Source: Nocardioides mesophilus (GTDB lineage: Bacteria; Actinomycetota; Actinomycetes; Propionibacteriales; Nocardioidaceae). Taken from it: a DNA stretch of 64,000 nucleotides. Below, piece after piece: positions 27,806 through 49,865 of this stretch. Each line of letters begins with the position of its first letter. The stretch's first letter is position 1. The stretch is taken from positions 524,501-588,500 of the forward strand of contig NZ_CP060713.1 of assembly GCF_014395785.1 (NCBI RefSeq). Direction: 5' to 3'. Both the position numbers and the translations under genes were made by a program. A model generated the notes under the pieces. It saw nothing but the letters and a program-made list of their open reading frames with translations. It did not search any database and was not told the DNA's origin.

Positions 27806-28450
27806 ATGCGCGTCGTCATCGCAGGCGGACACGGCCAGATCGCCCTCCTGCTGGAGCGCCAGCTGACCGACAACGGCGACCAGGCTGTCGGCCTCGTCCG
27901 CAACCCCGACCACGTCAGCGACGTGGAGGACACCGGAGCCGAGGCGGTGGTCCTCGACCTCGAGAAGAGTGACGTGGACGCGGTCGCCGAGGTGCTTCGC
28001 GGCGCCGACGCCGTCGTCTTCGCCGCCGGTGGCGGGCCCAACAGCGGTCCGGAGCGCAAGGACACCGTCGACCGAGGGGCAGCGGTGCTGCTCGCCGACG
28101 CCGCCGAGCGCGCGGCCGTGCGGCGCTACGTGATGATCTCCTCGATGGGCACCGACCAGGCCGACCCGGACAGCGACGACGCCTTCCAGGTCTACCTGCG
28201 CGCCAAGAAGGCCGCGGACGACGACCTGCGCGCCCGCGACCTCGACTGGACGGTCGTGCGGCCGGGTCGGCTCACTGACATGACGGGCACCGGCAGCGTC
28301 CGGGTCGGCACGCTCGAGCGCGGCGACATCCCTCGCGCCGACGTGGCGGCGACCCTGCTGGCGGCGCTGCACACGTCGCAGACGATCGGCAAGACCTTCG
28401 AGGTGCTCGAGGGCGACACCCCGATCGTCGAGGCGCTCCGCTCGCTGTGA
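27806..28450 (+). CDS. NAD(P)-binding atypical SDR family protein
   Basis: 214 aa. Rossmann signature GGHGQIALLLERQL at residue 7, GADAVVFAAGGGPNSGPERKD near 75, MISSMGTDQAD near 112, and DWTVVRPGRLTD near 150. This is the NAD(P)H-binding (NmrA/YwnB-like) branch, often redox sensors or sugar/flavin reductases; activity unknown. AAAGGA lies before the ATG. The gene is alone, divergent from the DegV gene, and is followed by the 77-bp structured repeat. Confidence 0.88.
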   Translation: MRVVIAGGHGQIALLLERQLTDNGDQAVGLVRNPDHVSDVEDTGAEAVVLDLEKSDVDAVAEVLRGADAVVFAAGGGPNSGPERKDTVDRGAAVLLADAAERAAVRRYVMISSMGTDQADPDSDDAFQVYLRAKKAADDDLRARDLDWTVVRPGRLTDMTGTGSVRVGTLERGDIPRADVAATLLAALHTSQTIGKTFEVLEGDTPIVEALRSL

Positions 28451-28506
28451 CGGCCCCGGGTGCCGGCCGGGTCCGCCCGGCGGCGGCTGGGGCCGGCGCC
28501 CCAGTG

Positions 28507-28583
28507 CTTCCCCAGGGAGTTTGACGCTTCCCATGGGCCACGGCCCATGGGAAGCATCAAACGTCCGACATCCCGTGGTAATC
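28507..28583 (+). repeat. 77-bp structured dispersed repeat, copy A
   Basis: Begins with CTTCCC and ends with CCGTGGTAATC. The core is a long inverted repeat: arms of 21 bases (28519-28539 and 28542-28562, one mismatch) around a 2-base loop, centred on CCCATGGGCC. Copy B at 49369-49445 on the other strand matches 60 of 77 positions without a gap. The element reads in the sense direction 56 bp after the stop of the NAD(P)-binding gene, and ends 10 bp before the convergent leuS stop. It could act as a terminator. Confidence 0.88.
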
Positions 28584-28593
28584 GGCGGCGGGG

Positions 28594-31122
28594 TCAGCCG
28601 GCGACGATGTTGACCAGCTTCGGCGCCCGGACGATTACCTTGCGCACCGTCTTGCCCTCCAGGGCCCGCTGCACGCCCGGGTCGGCCATCGCGGCGGCCT
28701 CCAGGTCCGCCTCGGCGATCCCGGGCGCCACCTCCAGCCGGGCCCGCACCTTGCCCTGGACCTGGACGACCGCGGTCACCGAGTCCTCGACCAGCAGCGC
28801 CTCGTCGACGACCGGCCAGCCGGCCCGCGCCACCGTGGGCTGGTGACCCAGACGCGCCCACATCTCCTCGGCGGTGTACGGCGCCACCAGGCTCAGCAGC
28901 ACGGCCACCGCCTCGACCGCCTCGCGCACGGCAGGGTCGGCCGGGCCGCAGCCGGCGTCGATCGCCTTGCGGGTGGTGTTCACCAGCTCCATCACCCGCG
29001 CGACCATCACGTTGAAGCGGTGCCCGTCGATCAGCTGGGCGGCGTCGGCCACGGTGCGGTGGGTGGCCTTGCGCAGCGCGACGTCACCGGCGTCGACGGC
29101 GCCGCCCACCGGGGCGGTGACGTCCCCGCTCAGCCGCCAGGCGCGCTGCAGGAACTTCAGCGACCCCGACGGCGACATGTCCGCCCAGTCGATGTCGTCC
29201 TCCGGCGGCCCGGCGAAGACCAGCGTCAGCCGGACCGCGTCGACGCCGTACCGGTCGATCATCTCGCCCAGGTTGACCCCGTTGCCCAGCGACTTGCTCA
29301 TCGCCTTGCCCTGGTTGATCACCTGGCCCTGGTTCATCAGGGCCTGGAACGGCTCCTCGAAGTCGACCATCCCCATGTCGTGCAGCACCTTGGTGAAGAA
29401 CCGGCTGTACAGCAGGTGCAGGATCGCGTGCTCGACACCGCCGACGTACTGGTGCGCCGGCATCCAGTCCCGCACCGCGTCGGGGTCGAACGGCCCGTCG
29501 GTGTAGTGCGGCGAGCAGTAGCGCAGGAAGTACCACGACGAGTCCACGAAGGTGTCCATCGTGTCGCTGTCGCGCTTGGCCGGACCGCCGCAGGACGGGC
29601 AGTCGACGTTGACCCAGTCCTCGGCCGCGGCCAGCGGTGAGGTGCCCTTGGGCTTCAGGTCGGCGCCGCGCAGGTCGGGCAGTACGACGGGCAGCTGGTC
29701 GTCGGGGACCGGGACCTCGCCGCAGGTCGGGCAGTGGACGATCGGGATCGGGCAGCCCCAGAACCGCTGCCGCGACAGCAGCCAGTCGCGCAGCCGGAAG
29801 TTGACGGCGCTGCGGCCGTGCCCCTCGGCCTCCAGCCGCTCGACGATGCGCCGGATGCCGGTGACCTTGTCGCTCAGGCCGTCCAGGCTGAACCCGTCGC
29901 TGCTGGAGCTGACGTAGGTGCCGTCGCCCGGCGTCGCGACGAAGGTCTGCGCCGGGTCCGGCTCGCCGGTGTCCACGACCATCCGCACCGGCAGGTCGAA
30001 GGCCTGGGCGAAGTCCAGGTCACGCTGGTCGTGGGCGGGCACCGCCATGACCGCACCGGTTCCGTAGTCGGCCAGCACGTAGTCCGCCGCCCAGACCGGG
30101 ATCCGCTCGCCGCTGACCGGGTTCACCGCGTGCCGGCCCAGGAACACGCCGGTCTTCGGCCGGTCGCTGGCCAGCCGGTCGATGTCGCTCTCCTTGCGCA
30201 CCTGGGTCAGGTAGCTGTCGAACGCCTCCCGCTGCTCGGGCGCGCACAGCTCGTCGGCCAGCTTGGCGTCGGCGGCCACCACGAAGAACGTCGCGCCGTA
30301 CAGCGTGTCGGGGCGGGTCGTGAAGACGGTGACCGACAGCGCCTCGTCCTGTCCGTCGCGCGGCTCGATGTCGAAGTCGACGTAGGCGCCCTCGCTGCGA
30401 CCGATCCAGTTGCGCTGCATGGCCAGCACCCGCTCGGGCCAGGTGTCCTTCAGCCCCTCCATGTCGTCCAGCAGCCGCTGGGCGTAGTCGGTCACCTTGA
30501 AGTACCACTGGGTCAGCTCGCGCTTGGTGACCTCGGCGCCGCAGCGGTCGCACATCCCGCCGACCACCTGTTCGTTGGCCAGCACCGTCTGGTCGTTGGG
30601 GCACCAGTTCACCGGGCTGGACTTGCGGTAGGCCAGGCCCCGCTCGCGGAAGCGCAGGAACAGCCACTGCGTCCACCGGTAGTACTCCGGGTCCGAGGTG
30701 TGCAGCCGCCGGGACCAGTCGAAGGAGACCGCGTAGCGCCGGAACGACTCGGCCTGGGTCTCGATGTTGGCGTAGGTGTAGGTCGCCGGGTGCTCGTCGC
30801 GCTTGATCGCGGCGTTCTCGGCGGGCAGGCCGAAGGAGTCCCAGCCGATCGGGTTCAGCACGTCGTAGCCGCGCTGCCACCAGTACCGCGCGATCACGTC
30901 GTGCAGCGCCATCACCTCCGCGTGACCCATGTGCAGGTCACCGCTCGGGTAGGGGAACATCGTCAGCGCGTAGCGGCGCTCGCGGGAGCCGTCGTCGGCG
31001 GCCTGGAACGGGTTCAGGTCCTCCCAGACCGCGCGCCACTTCTTCTGCGCGGTCTCGACGTCGTAGGTCACGTCCTGCTGCGCGGTCTCGACGTCGTAGG
31101 TCACGTCCTGCTGCTCGGTCAT
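28594..31122 (-). CDS. leuS: Leucine-tRNA ligase
   Basis: 842 aa class Ia synthetase that charges tRNA-Leu and proof-reads it. HIGH motif as HMGH in [15 protein letters not shown] near 66; zinc-like motifs CDRCGAE and CPTCGEVP; editing (CP1) domain with [18 protein letters not shown] motif in [13 protein letters not shown]. The extreme N-terminus has an exact tandem duplication of 11 residues (33 bp) before [13 protein letters not shown]. Start ATG at 31122 is placed after a terminator hairpin; the preceding leader peptide suggests control by leucine supply. Confidence 0.97.
31045..31110 (-). repeat. Perfect 33-bp tandem duplication in leuS
   Basis: 31045-31077 and 31078-31110 are identical. 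They encode two copies of [11 protein letters not shown] at the LeuRS N-terminus. The repeat keeps the frame and lies before the conserved fold. Confidence 0.92.
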
Positions 31123-49317: not shown

Positions 49318-49346
49318 AGTCTACGGACACACTCGGGCCCGGTCAA
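49318..49346 (-). promoter_or_regulatory. Promoter of rplU-rpmA
   Basis: Minus strand TTGACC (49341-49346), exactly 17 bp, TAGACT (49318-49323). Close to the sigma-A consensus and well spaced; start of transcription about 130 nt before rplU. Confidence 0.8.
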
Positions 49347-49368: not shown

Positions 49369-49445
49369 GATTACCACGGTATGCAGGAAGTCTGATGCTT
49401 CCCACGGGCCGAAGCCCGAGGGAAGCATCAGTCAGCCATGGGAAG
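49369..49445 (-). repeat. 77-bp structured dispersed repeat, copy B
   Basis: Same element as at 28507-28583 but on the minus strand. It starts CTTCCC and ends CCGTGGTAATC. The outer stem CTGATGCTTCCC / GGGAAGCATCAG is perfect; the inner stem CGGGC-TTCG-GCCCG has a UUCG tetraloop instead of copy A's longer palindrome. It lies about 40 bp after the stop of the 126-aa gene, and its tail ends about 23 bp before the rplU -35 box. It could terminate the rne operon. The rest of this 302-bp gap holds the rplU promoter and leader. Confidence 0.88.
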
Positions 49446-49484: not shown

Positions 49485-49865
49485 TCAGCGCTTGCGGACG
49501 CCCTTCTTCTTCACCGGCACGTGGATGGCGATGGAGCGCTCGGCCCCGTCCTCGTCCACGTCACCGGATCCGTCGGTGCCACCGTCTGCGTGCTCCTCGG
49601 ACGGTACGCCGGCCTCGGGGCCGGTCTGGTCCGCGGCCTCCGGCGACGTGACCGCGCCGTCGGACGCCTGCGTGGCCTCGACCCGGTCGGTCTCGGGATC
49701 CAGCGGACCGGCACCGGTCGGAGCGGTCGGGACGTCAGAGCCGTCCGCACCGGTCGTCGCGGCCTCGGCGGGCGCGGCAACGGAGCCGGCGCCGGCGTCT
49801 GCTGCGGCGGCCCCGGCGGGGGGTCCCGCCGGGCGGCGGGCCACCCGGCGACGTGACGAGGTCAC
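49485..49865 (-). CDS. Low-complexity protein coupled to rne
   Basis: 126 aa. Starts with the GTG at 49865, overlapping the rne stop by 4 nt (GTGA). N-terminus TSSRRRVARRPAGPPAGAAA is basic; the rest is Ala/Gly/Asp/Glu-rich with a Lys/Arg tail (VPVKKKGVRKR). No domain is recognised and it is predicted disordered. Translational coupling and the run of in-frame codons support a real gene, perhaps a detached tail of RNase E. The structured repeat follows its stop. Confidence 0.6.
   Translation of the reverse strand: MTSSRRRVARRPAGPPAGAAAADAGAGSVAAPAEAATTGADGSDVPTAPTGAGPLDPETDRVEATQASDGAVTSPEAADQTGPEAGVPSEEHADGGTDGSGDVDEDGAERSIAIHVPVKKKGVRKR

Follow-up and report, generated by a model that had tools for sequence, protein, structure and literature searches.

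Scattered palindromic elements of Nocardioides mesophilus as probable solo ends of a unit carrying an AbiEi-like, nuclease-type gene

Two 77-bp sequences in the window (the whole stretch of 64,000 nucleotides of Nocardioides mesophilus DNA analyzed here) are solo elements, and they are probably the terminal repeats of a nuclease-gene unit, mobilized by the mechanism proposed below. They are best read as REP-like elements whose partner is non-homologous to that of known REPs and of a nuclease type. Because 22 scattered copies carry the end that flanks the nuclease-like gene, these sequences apparently belong to a family of small mobile repeats that is widespread in actinomycetes and has not been described. 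With somewhat less assurance, we favor the broader reading that a fusion nuclease with AbiEi and Vsr/EDxHD parts, and no transposase, disperses and homogenizes the palindromes found between convergent genes, and that this is a class-wide, undescribed element of actinomycetes.

Anatomy and distribution of the element

The first-pass annotation had described two ungapped copies on opposite strands that begin and end alike and fold into a central hairpin, and this description was confirmed. The copies at 28507-28583 (plus) and 49369-49445 (minus) agree at 60 of 77 positions in an ungapped alignment, both start with CTTCCC and finish with CCGTGGTAATC, and both contain a central hairpin (folding z -6.5 and -5.3; 0 of 200 shuffles as good). 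Each element consists of an inner box, a covarying hairpin with a 17-bp stem, and an outer end. The features of the window are as follows; the names rne and rplU are taken from the sequences themselves or from the first-pass annotation and are presumptive.

27806..28450, plus strand: gene left of copy 1, putatively NAD(P)-binding (name from the first-pass annotation)
28507..28583, plus strand: element copy 1, 77 bp, lying between the stop codons of a convergent gene pair
28507..28516, plus strand: inner box of copy 1, CTTCCCCAGG, similar to the 5' arm of the hairpin
28522..28559, plus strand: hairpin 1 of copy 1, arms of 17 bp and loop of 4 nt
28560..28583, plus strand: outer end of copy 1, terminating in CCGTGGTAATC
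28594..31122, minus strand: convergent neighbor of copy 1, which we take to be leuS from its sequence
49369..49445, minus strand: element copy 2, 77 bp, with the rne-side ORF on one side and rplU on the other
49369..49392, minus strand: outer end of copy 2
49393..49430, minus strand: hairpin 1 of copy 2
49436..49445, minus strand: inner box of copy 2, CTTCCCATGG

Across the N. mesophilus genome (one contig, 4.49 Mb), copy 1 matched 22 places by BLAST (E 6e-9 or better), so the resemblance of the window copies is not due to chance, and the suggestion of a dispersed element of this genome was borne out. A covariance model produced 44 matches, which are both strands of 22 elements, and the best-strand match of each element placed all 89 model positions on exactly 89 bases. 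The usual outer end, in the exact form CCGTGGTAATC, occurs 17 times genome-wide and every time within an element. A left inner box of the CTTCCC type, variants included, is present in 15 of the 22 copies, and seven have outer ends on both sides. The annotation had named two outcomes that would overturn its proposal, namely, the absence of additional copies or a set of copies lacking the ends; 22 copies were found, and the ends are present. Based on a codon-usage gene caller made for this analysis and trained on 25 long ORFs of the window, none of the 22 copies lies inside a called gene, 12 are between convergent genes, two are between divergent genes, and eight are between co-directional genes. 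In the relative G006 (relatives' genomes are labeled G0xx and loci Lxxx), 33 of approximately 44 element places were examined, and 14 of 32 copies are between convergent genes; the off-type L105 was left out of the orientation and similarity counts. No Rfam family reached its gathering score at either window copy, with tRNA as the only family in the 64-kb window, and viral contigs gave 0 matches in one exact-pattern scan with a narrow pattern.

Among seven genomes of the genus, model R1 (built, like alignment A2, without copy L023, which was included in the orientation and end-similarity counts) matched four: N. mesophilus (44 matches), G006 (88), G001 (10), and G003 (4), with both strands counted. 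The broader model R2, which covers inner box and hairpin and was derived from 31 sequences of four genomes, has matches in 29 of 120 family genomes (E ≤ 1e-5). In these 31 sequences, 11 of the 17 base pairs of the stem vary at both partners. The covariation score is 0.318; shuffles gave 0.144, with none of 500 reaching the observed value, and slid partners gave no more than 0.110. The sequence itself differs between genomes, and the inner box tracks the hairpin arm in N. mesophilus, G006, and G001. That the box copies the hairpin arm is clear in three genomes but only weakly general (24 of 146 ends above the 95th percentile of the null; null fraction 2.5%).

Three further observations were made near the window copies. 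Immediately ahead of copy 1, a near-perfect 18-bp palindrome, CTGGGGCCGGCGCCCCAG, occupies 28487-28504 and may represent the actual 3'-end hairpin of the gene upstream. A promoter-like TTGACC-17-TAGACT is located at 49318-49346 (minus), with copy 2 upstream of it and rplU on its other side. The 126-aa ORF at 49485-49865 (minus) has a few-base overlap with the end of rne and a low coding score, and may be a displaced rne tail.

A nuclease-like gene between inverted ends

Two of the 22 N. mesophilus copies flank, in inverted orientation, a single gene for a 312-aa protein. When the genes near elements were clustered, the largest cluster was a gene of approximately 313 aa at four loci (N. mesophilus, G006, G098, and G086), with inverted elements on either side at all four. 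The unit has the gene at its center, bordered on each side first by an inner box, then by hairpin 1, and finally by an outer end, such that the two ends are inverted. With regard to a neighboring AbiEii toxin gene, no second gene was seen between the ends at the loci inspected. Homologs of this partner gene are present in 105 of 120 family genomes (E ≤ 1e-20), with a single match at this threshold in N. mesophilus and likewise in G006, and the gene was found in 44 of 98 genomes of the class sample (E ≤ 1e-40). At least 506 relatives were recorded in one scan.

The association of gene and ends was assessed by comparing the left flank of each gene with its inverted right flank, with the element sequences not consulted. 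At 29 of 30 family loci the match exceeded the 95th percentile of 870 mismatched pairs; the upper tails of such nulls are raised because near-identical loci are included, and the maximum of the 30-locus null (289) lies above most true pairs. For 78 loci of named genomes (L212 and L228 are without flanks), 62 scored ≥50 and 67 scored ≥38, compared with one and two, respectively, of 157 neighboring genes; 11 loci have no flanking pair ≥38. Among 20 further loci, mostly low-scoring homologs, 16 reached 50, 17 reached 38, and three had no such pair, and none of 29 window genes reached 38. In the class sample, 22 of 29 loci scored ≥50, including 18 of 25 from nine families outside the family studied here, and four had no pair ≥38. 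These counts are non-independent because the sets have some genes in common (for example, L144 and L175 denote one G006 gene, and L168 and L301 one G034 gene). Hairpins are present at 149 of 220 gene ends and at 13 of 220 control stretches. The outer part resembles a second complete palindrome in several other genomes by eye, and a scripted measure placed two hairpins in just six of 220 gene ends.

The units are preferentially located between convergent genes (68/97, vs. 25/277 neighboring pairs) and are rarely between divergent genes (2/97 vs. 79/277); the 97 are what is left of 110 loci after four duplicates and nine with an unknown neighbor were removed. In G001, a 144-aa gene between two inverted elements (L099) was considered as a partner and set aside; its product looks hydrophobic by eye, no PADLOC family was assigned, and the C13 paralog of the partner gene accounts for most of the tested G001 elements.

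The partner protein is predicted to combine an AbiEi-antitoxin-like N-terminal part with a Vsr/EDxHD-type nuclease domain. An AlphaFold model derived from 77 proteins of the named loci, with the G006 copy (L175) as the first sequence, has a pLDDT of 94.7. Residues 1-195 of this model align with the AbiEi antitoxin 6y8q (Z 9.6, rmsd 6.1 Å, 178 residues aligned), and residues 200-312 align with the catalytic domain of I-Bth0305I, 3r3p (Z 9.2, rmsd 2.4 Å, 96 of 97 residues), and with Vsr, 1vsr (Z 6.9, short of the value of 8 that the tool gives as a guide; rmsd 3.0). The predicted fold of the latter region fits the Vsr/EDxHD/PD-(D/E)XK nuclease superfamily. Foldseek supported 6y8q (E 3e-5), and its nuclease matches are weak by E-value (1cw0, a Vsr structure, 0.021; 3r3p, 0.08 with probability 1.00). 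Residues E203, D236, E247, D249, K253, and E271 are invariant in the 77 sequences and are putative active-site residues. By profile, the PADLOC AbiEi model matches all 77 proteins, and Pfam assigned AbiEi_4 to 59, DUF559 to two, MTES_1575 to one, and PvuRts1I-like to one. NCBIfam returned nothing for the 77 proteins, and the best result of a PDB sequence search was just Bax1 (E 0.7).

Solo copies follow the gene ends, and their sites can be filled or empty

Each lineage has its own end sequence, common to the gene and to the scattered solo copies, and solos match the ends of a partner-family gene in the five genomes examined (N. mesophilus, G006, G001, G074, and G004). All 20 N. mesophilus solos are closer to the N. 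mesophilus gene ends, and 29 of 30 G006 solos are closer to the G006 ends. For G001, ten of approximately 29 R2 matches were compared with three paralogs. Eight of the ten match the ends of the C13 paralog with scores of 57-92, and the remaining two score 27 and 29; the ends of the two other paralogs gave means of 22 and 20 against the same solos. The comparison with the C2 paralog is weaker because its flanks are short (118 and 71 bp). Since the ends differ among the G001 paralogs and the majority of tested solos resemble those of a single paralog, the system provides built-in specificity controls. Two G001 solos, L091 and L097, have an outer end of another type, CCGTGGCAAC, with no match to the C13 gene ends. 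Solos were also predicted from gene ends and then found in two genomes without an R2 match, in each of which the ends of one gene were searched; places beyond the two ends themselves numbered eight in G074 and 14 in G004.

The leuS site was compared across seven genomes of the genus, in a survey covering 13 of 20 leuS loci. The same two convergent neighbors are present in all seven, with the neighbor 68-76% identical to that of N. mesophilus. Three genomes hold an element of their own type here, with spacers of 143 bp in N. mesophilus, 273 bp in G006, and 92 bp in G001, where the element scores 98-102 against the C13 ends. The site is empty in four (spacers of 24 bp in G002, 4 bp in G003, 6 bp in G004, and 21 bp in G005), such that the ortholog of the gene at 27806..28450 stands beside leuS without an element. 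No target-site duplication was recognized by eye in these unaligned spacers. Downstream of leuS with another neighbor, G011 has an element-like sequence of its own type (L269, 2599-2695), which is not counted as a filled site because the neighbor gene differs, and in G010 direct and inverted repeats of a different type are clustered (L268, 2602-2813). The convergent site of the unit in N. mesophilus and G006 corresponds to a 10-bp spacer in G003, and in G001 and G002 it holds another AbiEi-like paralog (L255, 3104-4054; L259, 2733-3674) with 28-30% identity to the N. mesophilus protein over the aligned part. The copy number of 22, the filled and empty sites, and the gene-bearing unit with the same ends lend support to one of the options in the first-pass annotation, a non-autonomous mobile repeat.

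No transposition event was observed, and part of the spread is old because five element positions are common to N. mesophilus and G006; two of these orthologous pairs (L021/L078 and L038/L109) are supported by one common flanking gene each. Similarity to the ortholog in these five pairs is 0.70-0.73, compared with averages against own-genome copies of 0.74-0.79 in N. mesophilus and 0.73-0.82 in G006, and in cross-genome comparisons the orthologous copies take ranks from 5 to 21 of 32. Copies that are less like their orthologs than like other copies in the same genome point to copies evolving together within a genome.

From these comparisons we infer a mechanism of binding, nicking, mobilization in trans, and homogenization by repair. 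The N-terminal part of the partner protein would recognize the palindromic end, probably as an extruded hairpin or as a single strand. The nuclease domain would then nick or cut, either at this end or at a target located between convergent genes, with the host completing the reaction. Solo ends could thereby spread in trans and be kept alike by repair from one another.

A homing-type variant is conceivable, if on balance unlikely. It holds that cleavage by the nuclease takes place at sites that are element-free or divergent and that recombinational repair then copies the element in, with no transposition proper. The best match of the nuclease domain is indeed a homing endonuclease domain, the same site can host different elements, and the five orthologous pairs that are less alike than own-genome copies are what repair-driven homogenization would give. 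However, the solos occupy many unrelated intergenic sites, which is beyond the reach of homing alone.

Other explanations and relation to known systems

A primary role as a terminator or 3'-UTR structure had also been put forward. In its most developed form, the elements would serve the host as bidirectional terminators or as 3'-end structures at convergent genes and would share sequence incidentally, which we consider improbable. The strong hairpins, the convergent placement (12/22 in N. mesophilus and 14/32 in G006), and some positions kept between these two genomes agree with such a role. However, no T tract follows either window copy, such that the pattern of an intrinsic terminator (a GC hairpin and then a T tract) is lacking, and the common outer end or box, conserved outside the hairpin, is not required by terminators. 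The sense orientation after a stop codon that the first-pass annotation noted for the window copies is also not general, since six of the eight co-directional N. mesophilus copies are antisense and two are sense. Furthermore, the leuS site is without an element in four genus relatives, and the copies turn over genome by genome in step with the ends of the nuclease gene. A side effect of the elements on transcript ends is possible. The TRIT-type terminators of mycobacteria, as mentioned in the accessible part of PMC3526491, were set apart by description, given the missing T tract and the gene link.

Less probable still is a scattered regulon in which the elements serve as operators of an AbiEi-like autoregulator. 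Antitoxins of the AbiEi type bind inverted repeats located at the promoter from which they are expressed, and the partner protein has an AbiEi-like N-terminal half. An operator, however, would not account for ends on both sides of the gene, downstream included, and just two of the 22 N. mesophilus copies lie between divergent genes. For a regulator, a domain with a nuclease fold and invariant acidic residues would be superfluous.

The reading of the 77-bp sequences as solo ends of a nuclease-gene unit is closest to the REP/BIME/REPIN systems with their RAYT partners. In the available text of PMC2817692 and PMC3733652, REPs are short intergenic palindromes, many of them between convergent genes, with a gene between two inverted copies and with lineage-specific sequence. 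The same short intergenic palindromes (22 in N. mesophilus), the same inverted flanking of a gene, and the same lineage-specific match of gene ends and solos were found here. The partner is a Y1 (HUH) enzyme in REP/RAYT systems, whereas it is an AbiEi-like/Vsr-like nuclease in the present case. That a RAYT (Y1) transposase accounts for the elements as classical REPs, or a DDE insertion sequence for them as MITEs, is the least probable of the explanations considered, even though the layout of inverted palindromes around a gene and intergenic solos is the same. In a survey of Y1_Tnp (PF01797) across 120 family genomes, the domain was present in two (G009 and G016), neither with an R2 match (E ≤ 1e-5), and none of the 29 genomes with R2 matches, N. 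mesophilus included, has it. The ends, which measure approximately 77-90 bp and comprise an outer end, a hairpin, and an inner box, do not share the GTAG/CGTC head of REPs (alignments A2 and A3, by eye), and no target-site duplication was recognized. According to the parts of PMC3733652 available to us, GTAG and CGTC REPs are described mainly from Proteobacteria and from some other phyla, and CGTC REPs, mostly of alpha-Proteobacteria, have no dedicated transposase and stems of 8-9 bp. A Y1 transposase is likewise missing from the genomes with R2 matches, and the difference lies in these stems and in the CGTC head. Integron attC sites were also considered and rejected, with no GTTRRRY-type box seen at the ends by eye.

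The two halves of the partner protein are each related to known families. Its N-terminal ~195 residues share the fold of the AbiEi antitoxin of type IV toxin-antitoxin systems (6y8q); unlike AbiEi, it has an added C-terminal domain with a nuclease fold and is encoded by a single gene with its own inverted ends. The fold of the C-terminal domain is common to I-Bth0305I (EDxHD) and the Vsr/DUF559 nucleases; unlike these, it is fused to an AbiEi-like part, is associated with palindromic ends and scattered solos, and was not seen inside an intron. Among the matches listed for the open-access literature, at the level of titles and the starts of abstracts, no AbiEi-, DUF559-, or Vsr-like gene was linked to REP-type repeats. 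The same link is missing from the accessible portions of PMC3733652, PMC12306157, PMC12907096, PMC2817692, PMC3943268, and PMC3526491, and a word search of the available text of PMC3733652 found neither Nocardioides nor actinobacter-.

A REP-like system in Actinobacteria with a non-homologous partner enzyme would make the question of what moves the RAYT-less REPs a testable one. The reading also suggests what the many proteins known to Pfam and PADLOC as AbiEi-like alone may do; if it is true, hundreds of genes now labeled AbiEi-like (at least 506 relatives) would encode enzymes of an element. If the nuclease homogenizes the copies, the system would be an example, in bacteria, of dispersed repeats that undergo concerted evolution through an enzyme dedicated to them.

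Two further arrangements of elements were observed in relatives. In G011, four elements on the same strand are arranged in tandem with a spacing of approximately 330 bp (L128, 523-1564). In G006, an inverted pair of elements with no gene inside (L104, 1587-1890) is possibly a deletion derivative of the unit.
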